Assembly (NCBI RefSeq): GCF_001044255.1 | Contig: NZ_JYNX01000024.1 | Span: forward strand, 1 to 44,078 | Origin: Mycolicibacterium chubuense | GTDB taxonomy: Bacteria; Actinomycetota; Actinomycetes; Mycobacteriales; Mycobacteriaceae | Direction: 5' to 3' | Length of the DNA: 44,078 nt | Shown here: positions 12,809 to 19,829 of the stretch, in pieces | Numbering within the stretch: position 1 is the first letter of the stretch | Layout of the letters: every line of letters begins with the position of its first letter | Made by a program: the position numbers and the translations under genes | Notes under the pieces: model-generated | The model's input: only the letters and a program-made list of their open reading frames with translations | Told to the model about the DNA's origin: nothing | The model's database searches: none

Positions 12809-13516
12809 TCAGGCGCCCTCGGGGTCGCCGTAGGCGCGCGCGATGTCCTCCGACGACGCCCACCCCGAGTACGTGGGCCGCTGCGGCCAGCCCTCGGGCG
12901 AATCCTGCCACTCCTCCTGGCGGCCCCACGGCAGGATGTCGATCAGCGCGAACGAATGACTGAGCTGTTCGGTGCCGCGGCCGTTGGTGTGCCAGGTGCG
13001 GTAGACGGTGTCCTTGGTCGGATCCGGGTCGCGCAGGAACACGTTGACGGCGAAGCCTTCACCGGGGGCGGCGTCGACGTCGGCGGCGAACGGACTCTCC
13101 GACGACGAGTACCACTCCATCGCGTTGCCCACCCGGCGCTTGTAGGCCAGCGCCTCCTCGATGGGGCCCGACGTCACGATCACGAACCGCGCGTCGTAGT
13201 TGTCGAGGAAGCCGAGCCGGGTGAACTGGGAGGTGTAGCCGGTGCAGCCGCCGCACTGCCACGTGTCGCCGTCATTCCACATGTGGTTGTAGACGATCAG
13301 CTGCGAGCGGCCCTGGAAGATGTCGGCGAGCCGGACCGGGCCCTCGGCGCCGATCAGCGTGTAGTCCGGCATCTCGACCATCGGCAGGCGGCGCCGCTGC
13401 GCGGCGATCGCATCGAGTTCGCGGGTGGCGGCCTTCTCCCTGGCTCGCAGCTCGGCCAGCTGGGCGCGCCAGGTGTCGGCGTCGACGACGGGTGGGCGGG
13501 CGGTCGTTTCGATCAT
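12809..13516 (-). CDS. DUF899 family thioredoxin-like protein
   Basis: 235 aa, cytoplasmic. DUF899 proteins have a thioredoxin-like fold and an unknown role. Visible blocks are W....LR.REK..TR.LD..AA.RRRLP (residues 16-45), LADIFQGRSQLIVYNHMW, the CGGC pair in WQCGGCTGYTSQ (where thioredoxins carry CxxC), DARFVIVTSGP and the WYSS motif. The C-terminus has GWPQRPTYSGW. The CGGC pair suggests redox chemistry, but this is inference. It diverges from the tenA-like gene; both start codons follow copies of the same 16-base sequence. Confidence 0.88.
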   Translation of the reverse strand: MIETTARPPVVDADTWRAQLAELRAREKAATRELDAIAAQRRRLPMVEMPDYTLIGAEGPVRLADIFQGRSQLIVYNHMWNDGDTWQCGGCTGYTSQFTRLGFLDNYDARFVIVTSGPIEEALAYKRRVGNAMEWYSSSESPFAADVDAAPGEGFAVNVFLRDPDPTKDTVYRTWHTNGRGTEQLSHSFALIDILPWGRQEEWQDSPEGWPQRPTYSGWASSEDIARAYGDPEGA

Positions 13517-13522
13517 CGGGTC

Positions 13523-13528
13523 ATCCTG
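13523..13528 (-). promoter_or_regulatory. -10 type box CAGGAT for the DUF899 gene
   Basis: On the minus strand CAGGAT ends six bases before the ATG at 13516; it lies in the left arm of the inverted repeat. Confidence 0.5.
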
Positions 13529-13589
13529 TCAGCGATGTCACAGAGGGTCACCGGGATTGACCGGGCCCGCGCCCGGAACTCATCGCTGA

Positions 13590-13595
13590 CAGGAT
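13590..13595 (+). promoter_or_regulatory. -10 type box CAGGAT for the tenA-like gene
   Basis: CAGGAT ends seven bases before ATG13603, in the right arm of the inverted repeat, and supports this ATG over ATG13594, which lies inside the arm. Confidence 0.5.
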
Positions 13596-13602
13596 GGCGA
13601 GC

Positions 13603-14340
13603 ATGACATCGATCTCGCCGGCGCCGCCCCGCATCGGATCCGGGCGGCCGGGATCCTGGACCTCGCGGCTGTGGGCCGACATCGACGGGATCTTCGCCGC
13701 GATCACCGCGCACCCGTTCGTCACCGGGCTCACCGACGGCACGCTCGACGCGGACGCTTTCGTCCACTACGTCGCCCAGGACGTGCACTACCTGCGCGCC
13801 TACGCCCGCGCACTGGCCGTGGTCGGCGCCAAGGCCCCCACGCTGGCCGACACCGCGCTGTTCGCCCGGCACGCCGCCGAGGTGTTCGACGTCGAACTGG
13901 AACTGCACGGTGAGCTGTTACCCGCGCTGGGCCTGTCCCCCGACGCCGTCGACCGCGTTCCGGTCGCCCCGACCACGCAGGCCTACAACAGCTATCTGAT
14001 CGCCACGGTGTACGACGGCGGATTCGCCGACGGGCTCGCCGCGGTGCTGCCGTGCTACTGGATCTACGCCGAGGTGGGTGCCGAACTGGCGCACCGAGGT
14101 TCGCCCGACGCGCGGTACCAGAGCTGGATCGACAGTTACGGCGGCGACGAATTCGCGGCGACCGTCACCGAGGTGCTGGAGCTGGCCGACCGGGTGGGAC
14201 CGACGCTCACCGCGTCCGGCGAAGCCGCCGCCCGCGCCCACTTCGTCACCACCGCCCGCTACGAGTGGATGTTCTTCGACGCCGCACACCGCCGCGAGGC
14301 GTGGCCGGCGCCGACCACGGGCGCATCCGCCGCGCAGTGA
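13603..14340 (+). CDS. TenA/thiaminase II family protein, next to URC genes
   Basis: 245 aa, cytoplasmic, all-helical TenA fold. TenA-type enzymes hydrolyse C-N bonds of aminopyrimidines in thiamin salvage. All residues known from B. subtilis TenA appear: Asp60 and Tyr63 (AQDVHYL), Tyr128 (QAYNSYL), Cys151 and Tyr155 (LPCYWIYAEVG), Tyr179 and Glu221 (ARYEWMFFDAA). The enzyme is therefore probably active. It is followed after 65 bases by the GTP cyclohydrolase II homologue, DUF1688 and upp on the same strand, and no thi gene lies nearby, which suggests a pyrimidine-catabolism role instead of thiamin salvage. That role is inference. The first 20 residues (Pro/Gly/Ser-rich) are not part of the fold. 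Confidence 0.88.
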   Translation: MTSISPAPPRIGSGRPGSWTSRLWADIDGIFAAITAHPFVTGLTDGTLDADAFVHYVAQDVHYLRAYARALAVVGAKAPTLADTALFARHAAEVFDVELELHGELLPALGLSPDAVDRVPVAPTTQAYNSYLIATVYDGGFADGLAAVLPCYWIYAEVGAELAHRGSPDARYQSWIDSYGGDEFAATVTEVLELADRVGPTLTASGEAAARAHFVTTARYEWMFFDAAHRREAWPAPTTGASAAQ

Positions 14341-14405
14341 CTAAGCTGGCGCCTTTCCTCACGACCCACCGCAGTCCTCACGACCGACCCCAGCGAAGGA
14401 GACCG

Positions 14406-15641
14406 ATGCCCACCGGTCACGTCCGACTGACGTCGCACAGCGGTGGCACCGACGCGCCGGCACTGCACTGGGGAGCACCCACCCCGGCCGCGCGCGGACC
14501 CGTCGTCGGCACCACCGCCCGGGCGCACCGCAACGTCATCGGCACCCACAGCGGCGCGTACGGCGTCTACCGGGCGCTGGCGGTCGCGGCCGGCAAGCTG
14601 TCCCCCGACCACCGCGCCGACCTCACCGACACCGCGCCGACGGACCGGATCGGACCGTATCCGCAGTGGGGCGACCCCGCGATCATCGTCAGCCTGGATC
14701 CGTGGGGGGCGATGGTCACCGAGGCGTTCGCCGCCGAGATCGCCGCAGGCATGGACATCCGGCCCACCATCGCGGTCACCAAGGCGCAGGTGATCCTGCC
14801 GGAGATCGGCGACGCGCTCACCAAGGGCCGGCTCGCGCCGGACGGCCGGGTTCTGCTGCCGACCGGCGCCGCGCAGGTCACCAAGGCGGCCGTCGAACCC
14901 GTCTGGCACCTGCCGGGTGTGGCCGCCCGCTTCGGCTGCAGTGAAAACGATTTGCGCCGTGTGCTTTTCGAAGAGACCGGCGGAATGTATCCCGAGCTGG
15001 TGACCCGCCCCGACCTGGAGGTGTTCCTTCCGCCGATCGGCGGTCAGACGGTGTACATCTTCGGCGACCCGGCACACCTGGCCGACCCGGCGGTCGAGCT
15101 GACGGCGCGGGTGCACGACGAGTGCAACGGCTCCGATGTGTTCGGCTCCGACATCTGCACCTGCCGGCCCTATCTCACCCACGCGATCGAGGAATGCATC
15201 ATGGGCGCCCAGCGGGGCGGCGTCGGCCTGGTCTCCTACTCCCGCAAGGAAGGCCGCGCGCTCGGCGAGGTGACGAAGTTCCTGGTCTACAACGCCCGTA
15301 AGCGGCAGGCCGGCGGCGACACCGCCGACCAGTACTTCGCCCGCACGGAATGTGTTGCCGGAGTGCAGGACATGCGGTTCCAGGAGCTGATGCCCGACGT
15401 GTTGCACTGGCTGGGCGTCACGAAGATCCACCGGCTGGTGTCGATGAGCAACATGAAGTACGACGCGATCACCGGCGCCGGGAGCGAGGTCGGCGAGCGG
15501 GTGTCGATTCCTGACGAGCTGATCCCCGCCGACGCCCGCGTGGAGATGGACGCCAAGATGGCCGCCGGCTACTACACCCCCGGCGAGGTTCCCGACGCCG
15601 ACGACCTCAAGCGGGTGAAGGGCAGGGGGCTGCACGGATGA
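14406..15641 (+). CDS. GTP cyclohydrolase II homologue of the URC1 type (uracil catabolism)
   Basis: 411 aa, about twice the length of RibA. Residues 1-220 are an N-terminal extension found in the URC1 branch (TTARAHRNVIGTHSGAYGVYRAL, RIGPYPQWGDP, KAQVILPEI). The C-terminal half is the cyclohydrolase domain with three zinc-type cysteines: Cys240, Cys251 and Cys253 in RVHDECNGSDVFGSDICTC. The RibA motif QEGRGIGL is KEGRALGE (281-288), as expected for a protein not making riboflavin. In the URC pathway of yeasts and bacteria URC1 acts with URC4 and uracil phosphoribosyltransferase to open the uracil ring after ribosylation. AAGGAG lies seven bases before the ATG. The stop overlaps the next start by four bases. 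Confidence 0.87.
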   Translation: MPTGHVRLTSHSGGTDAPALHWGAPTPAARGPVVGTTARAHRNVIGTHSGAYGVYRALAVAAGKLSPDHRADLTDTAPTDRIGPYPQWGDPAIIVSLDPWGAMVTEAFAAEIAAGMDIRPTIAVTKAQVILPEIGDALTKGRLAPDGRVLLPTGAAQVTKAAVEPVWHLPGVAARFGCSENDLRRVLFEETGGMYPELVTRPDLEVFLPPIGGQTVYIFGDPAHLADPAVELTARVHDECNGSDVFGSDICTCRPYLTHAIEECIMGAQRGGVGLVSYSRKEGRALGEVTKFLVYNARKRQAGGDTADQYFARTECVAGVQDMRFQELMPDVLHWLGVTKIHRLVSMSNMKYDAITGAGSEVGERVSIPDELIPADARVEMDAKMAAGYYTPGEVPDADDLKRVKGRGLHG

Positions 15642-16861
15642 CCGTGCCCGCCGAGGCCGCCGAGGCCGCTCAGGTGCTGCGCACCACGACCGCGGTGCGG
15701 ACGCGCTCGGCGCTGCTGCTCGAGCGGGCCCGCGCGGGTGAGTCCCGCTGGTTCGCCGTCGACGACGACGCGTTGGCGGTCGCCGCCGACGACGTCGCCA
15801 CGCTCACCCGGACCCGGTTTCCTGATCTCGACATCCCGCTGCACAGCCGGTGGCGCCACTTCGAGGCCGGCGGCGTGGACCGCCGCGCCGACCTCGACGC
15901 CCTGCTCGACGGCGCCGACAGCCGCGAGCGTGTCCGCGCGATGATCGACCTCACCGTGATCAGCGTGCTGCTCGACGCCGGCGCCGGCGCCGACTGGGGT
16001 TTCGTCGAGGACGGCGTCCGGTACACCCGCTCGGAAGGTCTCGCGGTCGCCAGCTGGCACGCGTTCCTCGCCGGAACGTTCTCCAGCGACCCCGGACGGC
16101 CGCTGCAGGTCGACGCGGCGGCGCTGCGCACGCTGACCGTCGACCACCTCGCTGCGCAACTGCAGGTGAGCCCGGCCAATCCGCTCGTCGGTCTCGACGG
16201 GCGGGTCCACCTGCTGCGCCGGCTGGGCGATGCGCTGGCCGACCAGCCGGAGTTCTTCGGCGGGGCGGGCCGTCCCGGCGGCCTGTTCGACTCGTCGTCC
16301 GCCGCGTCGGGCGTCGTCGACGCGCACGACCTGCTGGCCGCGCTGCTGACATCAATGTCCCGAATCTGGCCGTCGCGCAACATGATCGGCGACGTGCCAC
16401 TGGGCGACTGCTGGCGCCACGACGCCGTCGACGGCCCGGGGCTGACGGCGGGCTGGCTGCCGTTCCACAAGCTGTCGCAGTGGCTAACCTACTCGCTGAT
16501 CGAACCCCTGCGCTGGGCCGGGGTGACGGTCACCGGGGTGGAGTCCCTCACCGGGCTGCCCGAGTACCGCAACGGCGGCCTGCTGCTCGACACCGGGGTG
16601 CTGCGGCTGCGCGATCCCGCCGACGCCGAGCGCGCGTGGACCCCGGCCGACGAACCCGTCGTCGAGTGGCGTGGGCTGACGGTGGCCCTGCTCGACGAGC
16701 TGGCGCCGCTCGTGCGTGCCCGGCTCGGCGCCGACGCGGCGCAGCTGCCGCTGGCATGCGTCCTCGAAGGCGGCACCTGGGCGGCGGGCCGGGCCGTGGC
16801 CCAACAGTTACGCGGCGGGCTGCCGCCGCTGTCGATCACCAGTGACGGGACGGTGTTCTAG
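15638..16861 (+). CDS. URC4/Urg3 family (DUF1688) protein, uracil catabolism
   Basis: 407 aa, normal for DUF1688. Conserved blocks are SVLLDAGAGADWGF (about residues 107-120), RSEGLAVASWHAFLAGTFS, NPLVGLDGRVHLLRRLGDAL (about 181-200), GDCWRHD, PFHKLSQWLTYSLIEPLRWAG and GLPEYRNGGLLLDTGVL. This family is known only from the URC pathway, where it is essential for uracil breakdown, but its reaction is not settled. The ATGA overlap with the URC1-like gene and direct abutment with upp (TAG then ATG) show one transcription unit. No membrane segment or signal is present. Confidence 0.9.
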   Translation: MTVPAEAAEAAQVLRTTTAVRTRSALLLERARAGESRWFAVDDDALAVAADDVATLTRTRFPDLDIPLHSRWRHFEAGGVDRRADLDALLDGADSRERVRAMIDLTVISVLLDAGAGADWGFVEDGVRYTRSEGLAVASWHAFLAGTFSSDPGRPLQVDAAALRTLTVDHLAAQLQVSPANPLVGLDGRVHLLRRLGDALADQPEFFGGAGRPGGLFDSSSAASGVVDAHDLLAALLTSMSRIWPSRNMIGDVPLGDCWRHDAVDGPGLTAGWLPFHKLSQWLTYSLIEPLRWAGVTVTGVESLTGLPEYRNGGLLLDTGVLRLRDPADAERAWTPADEPVVEWRGLTVALLDELAPLVRARLGADAAQLPLACVLEGGTWAAGRAVAQQLRGGLPPLSITSDGTVF

Positions 16862-17503
16862 ATGACTTCGAGAGTTTCCGGAGTGCACCTGGTCGACCAC
16901 CCGCTGGTCCAGCACAAGATCACGCTGATGCGGCGGAAGGACGCCTCCACCAACACCTTCCGCCGACTGGTGCACGAGGTGTCGGCGCTGATGGCCTACG
17001 AGGTGCTGCGTGACATCGGCATGCACGAGGTCCCGGTCGACACACCGATGGAGTCGACCACCGGCAACGTGATCGACGGCAAGAAGCTGGTGTTCGTCTC
17101 GGTGCTGCGCGCGGGCACCGGGATCCTCGACGGCATGCTCGACGTCGTGCCGTCCGCCCGGGTCGGCCACATCGGGCTCTACCGCGAACCGAAAACGCTT
17201 GTCACCGTGGAGTACTACTTCAAGATGCCCGGCGATCTGGCCGAGCGCGACGTGGTGGTGCTCGACCCGCTGCTGGCCACCGGTAACTCGGCTGTCGCCG
17301 CGGTGGAGCGGGTGCGCGAATGCAACCCCAAGTCGGTGAAGTTCGTCTGCCTGGTGACGTGCCCGGAAGGGATCGCGGCGATGACGCAGGCCCACCCCGA
17401 TGTGCCGATCTACACCGCGGCCGTCGACCGCCAACTCGACGGCAACGGCTACATCCTGCCCGGGCTCGGTGACGTCGGCGATCGCATCTTCGGCACCAAG
17501 TAG
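16862..17503 (+). CDS. upp: Uracil phosphoribosyltransferase
   Basis: 213 aa. The enzyme makes UMP from uracil and PRPP. Signatures are the N-terminal [14 protein letters not shown], the PRPP loop [14 protein letters not shown] (residues 131-144) and the uracil-binding end [17 protein letters not shown] (196-212). All are intact. The start codon follows the URC4 stop without a gap. In the URC pathway this enzyme (FUR1/URC6 in yeast) supplies the ribosylated substrate, so its place here points to catabolism as well as salvage. From sequence alone a housekeeping salvage role cannot be excluded if there is no second copy elsewhere. Confidence 0.97.
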
Positions 17504-17527: not shown

Positions 17528-17533
17528 TAGGCT
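17528..17533 (+). promoter_or_regulatory. -10 box TAGGCT, leaderless type
   Basis: TAGGCT ends seven bases before ATG17541, so aceA has its own promoter only 25 bases after upp. Confidence 0.65.
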
Positions 17534-17540
17534 TCGGGTC

Positions 17541-19829
17541 ATGGCCATCATCGAAGCCGACCTTCAGCCTGAGACGCCGTTCGAACGAGACGTCGCAGAG
17601 ACGCAACGCTATTTCGACAGCCCCCGCTTCGAGGGCATCATCCGCCTCTACACCGCGCGGCAGGTCGCCGAGCAGCGCGGCACGATCCCCGCCGACTACC
17701 CCGTCGCGCGGGAGGCGGCCACCGCGTTCTATCCGCACCTGCGGGAGCTGTACTCGCGCGGCAAGAGCATCACCACCTTCGGGCCGTACTCCCCCGGCCA
17801 GGCGGTGGTGATGAAGCGGATGGGCATCGAGGGCATCTACCTGGGCGGCTGGGCCACCTCGGCGAAGGGGTCGATCAGCGAGGACCCGGGACCCGACCTG
17901 GCGAGCTATCCGCTCAGCCAGGTGCCCGAGGAAGCCGCCGGCATCGTCCGGGCGCTGCTGACCGCCGATCGCAACCAGCAGTACCTGCGTCTGCAGATGA
18001 CCGAGGAGCAACGCGCGGCCACCCCCGCCTTCGACTACCGGCCGTTCATCATCGCCGACGCCGACACCGGCCACGGCGGCGATCCGCACGTCCGCAACCT
18101 GATCCGCCGCTTCGTCGAGAACGGCGTGCCGGGCTACCACATCGAGGACCAGCGTCCCGGCACCAAGAAGTGCGGCCACCAGGGCGGCAAGGTGCTGGTG
18201 CCCTCTGACGAGCAGATCAAGCGGCTCAACACCGCCCGATTCCAGCTCGACATCATGCGGGTTCCCGGCATCATCGTCGCCCGCACCGACGCCGAGGCGG
18301 CCAACCTGATCGACAGCCGCGCCGACGAGCGCGACCAGCCGTTCCTGCTCGGTGTGACCAACCTGAAGATCCCGTCGTACAAATCCTGCTTCCTGGCGAT
18401 GGTGCGGCGCTTCTACAACCAGGGTGTGACCGAACTGAACGGTCACCTGCTCTATGCGCTGCCCGACGGCGAGTACGCCACCGCCGAGGCGTGGCTGGAA
18501 CGCCAGGGCGTGCTGGCCCTGATCGACCAGACCGCCGCCGCCTGGCAGGACGGCGCCGAGCCGTCGCTCGACGCGGCGTTCGACACGGTCGAGTCCCGCT
18601 TCGTCGACGCCTGGCAGGACGACGCCGGGCTCGACACCTACGCCGGCGCCGTGGCCGATCTGCTCGAATTCCGGGAGCGCGAGGGCGAATCGACGACGAT
18701 GAGCGCCACGGAATGGCGCGCCTTCGCCGAACGCGCCCCGCTGTACAACGCGCGCGAGAAGGCCCAGGAGCTCGGCGCCGATGTGGCCTGGGACTGTGAG
18801 CGGGCCAAGACGCCCGAGGGTTACTACCAGGTGCGCGGCGGTATCCCGTACGCGATCGCGAAGTCGTTGGCGGCGGCCCCGTTCGCCGACATCCTGTGGA
18901 TGGAGACCAAGACCGCCGACCTCGCCGACGCCAAGCAGTTCGCCGACGCCATCCACGCGGTGTACCCGGACAAGATGCTCGCCTACAACCTCTCCCCGTC
19001 GTTCAATTGGGACACCACCGGGATGACCGACGAGGAGATGCGGGCGTTCCCCGAGGAGATCGGGAAGATGGGCTTCGTCTTCAACTTCATCACCTATGGC
19101 GGCCATCAGGTCGACGGCGTGGCGTCCGAGGAGTTCGCGACGTCGCTGCGGCAGGAGGGCATGCTGGCGCTGGCCCGCCTGCAGCGGAAGATGCGTCTGG
19201 TCGAATCCCCCTACCGCACACCGCAAACCCTCGTCGGTGGCCCGCGCAGCGACGCCGCGCTGGCCGCGTCGTCCGGTCGCACCGCGACGACGAAGTCGAT
19301 GGGCAAGGGCTCCACGCAGCACCAGCACCTGGTGCAGACCGAGGTGCCCAAGAAGCTGCTCGAGGAGTGGCTGGCGCTGTGGAGTGAGCACTACCAGCTG
19401 CCGGAGAAGCTACGCGTGCAGCTGCGGCCGCGGCGGGCCGGGTCGGACGTGCTGGACCTGCAGATCCTCGGCGACGGGGAAGAGCCGCTGGCCAACGTCG
19501 TCGTCGACCCGATCAAGGACCGGCACGGCCGCAGCATCCTGACCGTGCGCGACCAGAACACCTTCGCCGAGCAGTTGCGCCAGAAGCGACTGATGGACCT
19601 GATCCATCTGTGGCTGATCCACCGGTTCAAGGCCGAGATCGTCTACTACGTGACGCCGACGGAGGACAACATCTATCAGACCGAGAAGATGAAGTCGCAC
19701 GGCATCTTCAGCGACGTCTACCAGGAGGTCGGCGAGATCATCGTCGCCGATGTGAATCAGGCGCGCATCGACGAACTCCTCGCGCCCGACCAGAGGGCAC
19801 TGCTGCGGCTGATCAGCAAGCAGGACTGA
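17541..19829 (+). CDS. aceA: Isocitrate lyase, long ICL2 type
   Basis: 762 aa, the long mycobacterial isoform (ICL1 is about 430 aa). It cleaves isocitrate to glyoxylate and succinate in the glyoxylate shunt and also serves the methylcitrate cycle during growth on fatty acids or propionate-forming substrates. The catalytic cysteine is in KKCGHQGGK (Cys211), and [17 protein letters not shown] and [10 protein letters not shown] are the other active-site blocks. The C-terminal 150 residues (from about 610, [14 protein letters not shown]) form the extra ICL2 domain. The gene is intact, unlike the split copy in M. tuberculosis H37Rv. ATG17541 is supported by a TAGGCT box. Confidence 0.95.

Follow-up and report, generated by a model that had tools for sequence, protein, structure and literature searches.

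A tenA gene beside a URC uracil operon in Mycolicibacterium chubuense: a probable thiamin-pyrimidine salvage gene adjoining an operon with a likely promoter of its own

Does a TenA protein that is encoded directly upstream of the genes for uracil breakdown act in that pathway, or does it serve thiamin metabolism and adjoin the uracil genes as a separate gene? The question is raised by contig C24 (NZ_JYNX01000024.1) of Mycolicibacterium chubuense, part of a 5.9 Mb genome with a completeness given as 100%; the whole stretch of 44,078 nucleotides that was analysed is called the window here. On its forward strand, tenA (13603-14340, 245 amino acids), annotated as a thiaminase II/aminopyrimidine aminohydrolase of the TenA_C type with the active-site residue Cys151, is followed after a gap of 65 bases (14341-14405) by URC1 (14406-15641, 411 amino acids), which encodes a GTP cyclohydrolase II-like protein. 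URC4 (15638-16861, 407 amino acids), encoding a DUF1688 protein, overlaps URC1 by 4 bases and is joined with zero gap to upp (16862-17503, 213 amino acids), the uracil phosphoribosyltransferase gene in the URC6/FUR1 role. An earlier note, made from the letters of the sequence, had given the coordinates, the overlap, the zero-base junction and the 65-base gap of these four genes exactly to the base. The gene run that it described stands as stated and ends one gene early, because an isocitrate lyase gene (17541-19829, forward strand, 762 amino acids) starts 37 bases past upp. A TAGGCT sequence at 17528-17533, 8 bases 5' of the isocitrate lyase start, is perhaps a leaderless promoter of this gene. 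On the other side of tenA lies a divergent DUF899 gene (12809-13516, reverse strand), and between the two genes a perfect 16-base inverted repeat (arms 13522-13537 and 13581-13596) spans the ribosome-binding sites of both. This repeat is absent from five of the relatives compared and nearly kept in the remaining one, G248.

The URC1, URC4 and Upp proteins each match their family model, as the assignment of the trio to the URC set in the earlier note had implied. URC1 consists of a GTP_CH_N domain (256.9 bits) and a GTP_cyclohydro2 domain (54.1 bits) and scores 777 bits against NF005536, the PRK07198 model, with a cut-off of 403; the N-terminal extension noted before is present and is the known GTP_CH_N domain. 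URC4 matches PF07958 (487.1 bits) in full, over model positions 2-420 of 420, and Upp matches TIGR01091 with 256.5 bits; a second upp copy of the genome is found on contig C12. Bacterial URC operons have been described previously. The order URC1-URC4-upp on one strand was kept in 76 of 80 named loci from mycobacteria, Rhodococcus, Gordonia and many Burkholderiales, and therefore the trio is not a chance association. In the remaining four loci upp was not found, three of these loci being cut, or nearly so, by a contig end. The operons of other mycobacteria, Rhodococcus, Gordonia, Variovorax and Ramlibacter have the same gene order as the window. Within the genus, 88 of 248 genomes gave a DUF1688 match, as did 27 of 201 genomes sampled from the family. 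The trio of the window is an ordinary, standard URC operon of a known pathway, and its presence in a mycobacterium is not unusual. The suggestion that use of uracil would be an unusual trait for a mycobacterium finds no support, given this spread within the genus and the case of M. smegmatis, for which an excerpt of PMC4617892 describes a reductive uracil pathway that is induced under nitrogen limitation.

An excerpt of PMC7530994 assigns the steps to 3-hydroxypropionate and ribosylurea in yeast to URC1 and URC6, and the step to urea to URC4. By analogy, Upp would convert uracil to UMP, URC1 and URC4 would open and strip the ring to yield 3-hydroxypropionate and urea, and urease would then split the released urea; a urease alpha subunit is encoded on contig C85. 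Compared with the pathway of Lachancea kluyveri (URC1, URC4, URC6/FUR1), the window encodes the same three protein families, whereas its genes form a bacterial operon with overlapping reading frames and the urea is probably split by urease and not by urea amidolyase.

To relate tenA to this operon, the coordinates of TenA and DUF1688 were compared across the same 248 genomes of the genus, with TenA of the window's type counted at no less than 130 bits and with URC genomes defined as the 87 (of 88 with DUF1688) that encode a near-complete URC4. TenA of this type was found in 55 of the 87 URC genomes and was missing from 32. The gene lies just 5' of URC1 in 18 of them ("adjacent", one of these, G309, with an intervening gene), 3.5-4.5 kb downstream in 13 ("down") and 11-19 kb upstream in five ("far"), and is unlinked to URC in 19.

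Directly past the tenA stop codon of the window lies the promoter-like element CTAAGCTGGCGCCTTTCC (14341-14358, forward strand), which contains TAAGCT, a -10 sequence of the TANNNT type, at 14342-14347. TANNNT is given as the -10 preference of SigA in M. smegmatis in an excerpt of PMC6448022. The motif TANGCT[G/T]GC, often followed by a GCCTTTCC-like sequence, precedes URC1 in 18/18 adjacent, 5/5 far and 18/19 unlinked genomes, in 19 of the 32 genomes lacking TenA of this type (13 are without the motif) and in 12 of 23 loci from other genera, and was found in 0 of the 13 down genomes, with about 250 nt searched upstream. Its background amounts to 23 matches in 1,284,458 positions or 0.0036 per 200 nt, as determined from loci L117-L156 with the URC copies included. 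In all 18 adjacent genomes the element follows the tenA stop, and in 17 of them it lies 33-64 nt before the URC1 start as called by script; for G216 the script did not resolve the start and there is no such distance. A run of 23 bases, AGTGACTAAGCTGGCGCCTTTCC, is identical in the window and in G208, a genome without TenA of this type. A sigma-70 scan, which also requires a -35 hexamer, did not call the element. The 18-mer CTAAGCTGGCGCCTTTCC occurs once in the genome at up to 2 mismatches, and therefore no second target was seen and the idea of a URC-promoter regulon was dropped. As a separate observation, GGTTGACTGGA stands 5' of URC1 instead of the motif in 11 of the 13 down genomes (L123-L127 and others) and in five TenA-less genomes, and may represent another kind of URC control region.

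From this conservation we infer that the element functions as a promoter. The URC operon thus likely has a promoter of its own, and transcription of URC1-URC4-upp would start in the gap between tenA and URC1. TenA had been placed at the head of the operon, an arrangement that is not supported, as the element separates the two genes in 18/18 adjacent genomes and also precedes URC1 in many genomes with TenA elsewhere or absent. The conserved element offers a handle on bacterial URC gene control.

Between tenA and position 14406 no terminator was found; the earlier note had named one there as evidence that would refute its reading. The gap therefore combines a conserved promoter-like element with no detected terminator, and because it is short and the genes share one strand in 18 genomes, transcription may read through from tenA into URC. 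On this basis tenA and URC may share transcription, by read-through or by a common regulator, for instance under nitrogen limitation, without sharing a pathway. The gap measures 46-153 bases in every adjacent genome but one (17 of 18), and the upp gene msmeg_3473 of M. smegmatis, which is not necessarily a URC upp, is given as up 2.55-fold under nitrogen limitation in an excerpt of PMC4617892. We nevertheless regard shared transcription as rather improbable in view of the promoter-like element conserved in 18/18 and of G309, where the gap extends to 936 bases and holds an MmyB-like regulator gene (L122 8316-9026) between tenA and URC1 while the element stays with URC1.

Less still is to be expected of the proposal, close to that of the earlier note, that TenA takes part in the URC pathway as an enzyme which hydrolyses a C-N bond of a ring-opened pyrimidine such as ribosylurea or removes a damaged by-product, with tenA heading the operon. 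The proposal draws on the adjacent position of tenA in 18 of 87 URC genomes, on its location within 25 kb of URC in 36 of 87, on the same strand in 36/36, on the gap in which no terminator was found, and on co-occurrence, which exceeds expectation in raw genome counts (55/87 URC genomes against 33/161 others, the latter being the 33 genomes of 248 with window-type TenA and without a near-complete URC4). We tentatively ascribe this excess to shared ancestry. An enzyme acting on a ring-opened intermediate is, however, hard to reconcile with the 32 of 87 URC genomes in which TenA of this type is missing and with the 11 of 88 DUF1688 genomes in which no TENA_THI-4 match of any kind was found. The promoter-like element of URC1 itself argues in the same direction. 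In the flanks of URC, searched by tblastn with the TenA of the window as query, TenA turned up in 11 of the 31 loci with a mycobacterial title versus 0 of 49 others; the flanks reached up to 10 kb, some contigs being shorter, a very divergent TenA could escape tblastn, and one of the 49 loci, L227, is G240, a member of the window's genus. TenA is thus not kept with URC across lineages, nor is it separated from URC in all relatives, given the 18 adjacent cases of 87 in the genus. At the level of the family, the window is the only adjacent case seen among 27 URC genomes, as compared by eye from the TenA matches listed. Among the open-licence papers listed, none linking TenA with URC was seen. 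An apparent TenA-URC1 fusion in G365 and G371, a frame of 692 residues, was rejected, as a stop codon follows TenA and the tblastn alignment had overrun it.

The neighbours of tenA, namely nlpC/p60, tpx (thiol peroxidase), menC and a GDSL gene, form a conserved block. Of 45 large loci that were read, picked by arrangement and not at random, 43 contained a TenA match. Both nlpC and tpx accompany tenA in 17 of the 18 URC-linked loci read (tpx only in the other one), in nine of 19 URC-less loci and in two of six loci whose genomes carry URC elsewhere; the other ten and four loci, respectively, are placed elsewhere. In G274, which gave no DUF1688 match, the order is nlpC-tpx-DUF899-tenA, followed after 27 bases by isocitrate lyase and menC. 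The isocitrate lyase gene is therefore not tied to URC. G240 (L227) has nlpC-tpx-URC1-URC4-upp-isocitrate lyase, with DUF899 and tenA absent at this place, and its draft genome gave no match to TENA_THI-4. G274 and G240 are reciprocal half-clusters at the same site. On a TenA tree of 93 rows, built with a quick method and SH-aLRT support, all 18 adjacent genomes fall into a single cluster that also includes G274 (SH-aLRT 97), which would most simply reflect a single origin of the TenA-URC adjacency. Since G326 branches first, one loss of URC in place is the simplest reading. On the same tree the 13 down genomes cluster together with five genomes that have TenA and no URC (97).

Linkage had been considered as proof of function, the 36 linked pairs out of 36 being on the same strand, and was rejected because the tenA block also occurs in genomes that lack URC. 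TenA keeps its place and an unchanged active site in such genomes. We propose that TenA is a separate gene of the conserved nlpC-tpx-menC block, beside which the URC cassette lies in one clade. A tight, co-oriented gene pair can thus mislead, as the same pair appears in relatives as two separable halves at one site. That the TenA of this clade has a second role, either in C-N hydrolysis of a URC intermediate or in the clearance of toxic aminopyrimidines, would join vitamin salvage and pyrimidine catabolism in one operon and is very improbable, the evidence for action on URC intermediates being position and co-occurrence, with no support beyond these.

What, then, would the protein do? It matches TENA_THI-4 with 145.6 bits and the salvage_TenA model TIGR04306 with 142.1 bits, above the cut-off of 130, and is the sole TENA_THI-4 match of the genome. 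The residues D44, Y47, Y112 and Y163 of Bacillus subtilis TenA, which we take to be catalytic along with C135 and E205, align to D60, Y63, Y128 and Y179 of the window's protein. C135 and E205, named in an excerpt of PMC10277260, align to C151 and E221. The active site, previously called complete, indeed keeps all six residues. All 87 mycobacterial rows carry them, URC-linked or not, except for Y63, which is found in 86. To the TenA_C thiaminase II of B. subtilis (1yaf/1yak/2qcx), with which it shares the six catalytic residues, the protein is thus related at about 145 bits over 200 residues, whereas its gene is without a TPP riboswitch and no thiamin gene was found beside it. No TPP riboswitch was detected in the window, and the stretches around tenA in G248 and G274 likewise gave none, whereas the same run called one at each of three thi loci; control of tenA by such a riboswitch was dismissed. 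A TPP riboswitch is not required of every TenA gene.

The partner genes for the route from the thiamin pyrimidine HMP to thiamin phosphate are present in the genome, namely ThiE, two ThiD-like kinases, ThiO, ThiS and ThiG (358 bits). They are located on contigs C36 and C37 and the window on C24; within the scope of the search, the remark that thiamin genes are lacking nearby is correct. ThiC gave no match in this genome, the control being positive in 13 of 14 genomes, and none in G248, the closest relative as judged from TenA, which is listed with one contig. In the relative G391 a TPP riboswitch is followed by thiC and thiD, whereas in M. chubuense it stands directly before thiD, and the same two genes flank thiD in both genomes (84% identity each, thiD 83%). 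With riboswitch-thiD lying between the same neighbours as riboswitch-thiC-thiD, thiC has been excised cleanly. A second TPP riboswitch precedes thiO-thiS-thiG. The thiC-less riboswitch/thiD locus and the thi locus are on contig C36 (L313 7039-7979 and L304 15929-18637), and the corresponding stretch of the relative is L306 11309-13801. The region at L304 1286-6943, some 9 kb away from thiOSG, encodes an ABC transporter of the polyamine type together with a semialdehyde-aminotransferase-like protein.

Across the genus ThiC is missing in 31 of 248 genomes. TenA of the window's type occurs in 20 of these 31 versus 68 of 217 with ThiC; among URC genomes the figures are 18/18 versus 38/70, and outside them 2/13 versus 30/147, which is no association. 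The association, confined to the URC group, may be confounded by ancestry. Among the 11 thiC-less genomes without this TenA, six are listed with 1.9-4.0 Mb, 140-520 contigs and a completeness of 63-97%. In haptophyte algae, according to an excerpt of PMC5635689, TenA proteins go with the absence of THIC and with growth on HMP or its amino analogue. As thiC is lost and thiD, thiE, thiO, thiS and thiG are kept, TenA fits a role in salvage of the thiamin pyrimidine. With TenA in 18/18 sampled thiC-less URC genomes, pyrimidine auxotrophy and TenA-dependent salvage become testable in mycobacteria.

Taken together, we hold it to be quite probable that URC1-URC4-upp is a uracil operon with its own promoter and that tenA is an adjoining, separate gene of thiamin-pyrimidine salvage. 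TenA would most likely supply HMP from breakdown products of aminopyrimidines and so feed thiamin synthesis in this cell, a supply that matters here because the genome has kept thiD, thiE and the thiazole genes but has lost thiC by deletion. Against salvage stand the lack of a detected TPP riboswitch 5' of tenA and the 11 thiC-less genomes without TenA of this type; 68 genomes, conversely, have both ThiC and this TenA.

Elsewhere in the genus, tenA was seen near a gene of the xanthine/uracil permease family in G202 (L147 5419-6834), with URC elsewhere in the genome, and the same type of gene cluster occurs in G212 and G378. In several genomes two TenA-like domains are encoded in tandem with about 40 bases between them, for example at G291:C1:4342666-4343852 and G081:C9:76099-77261, an arrangement that differs from the single TenA of the window's type.
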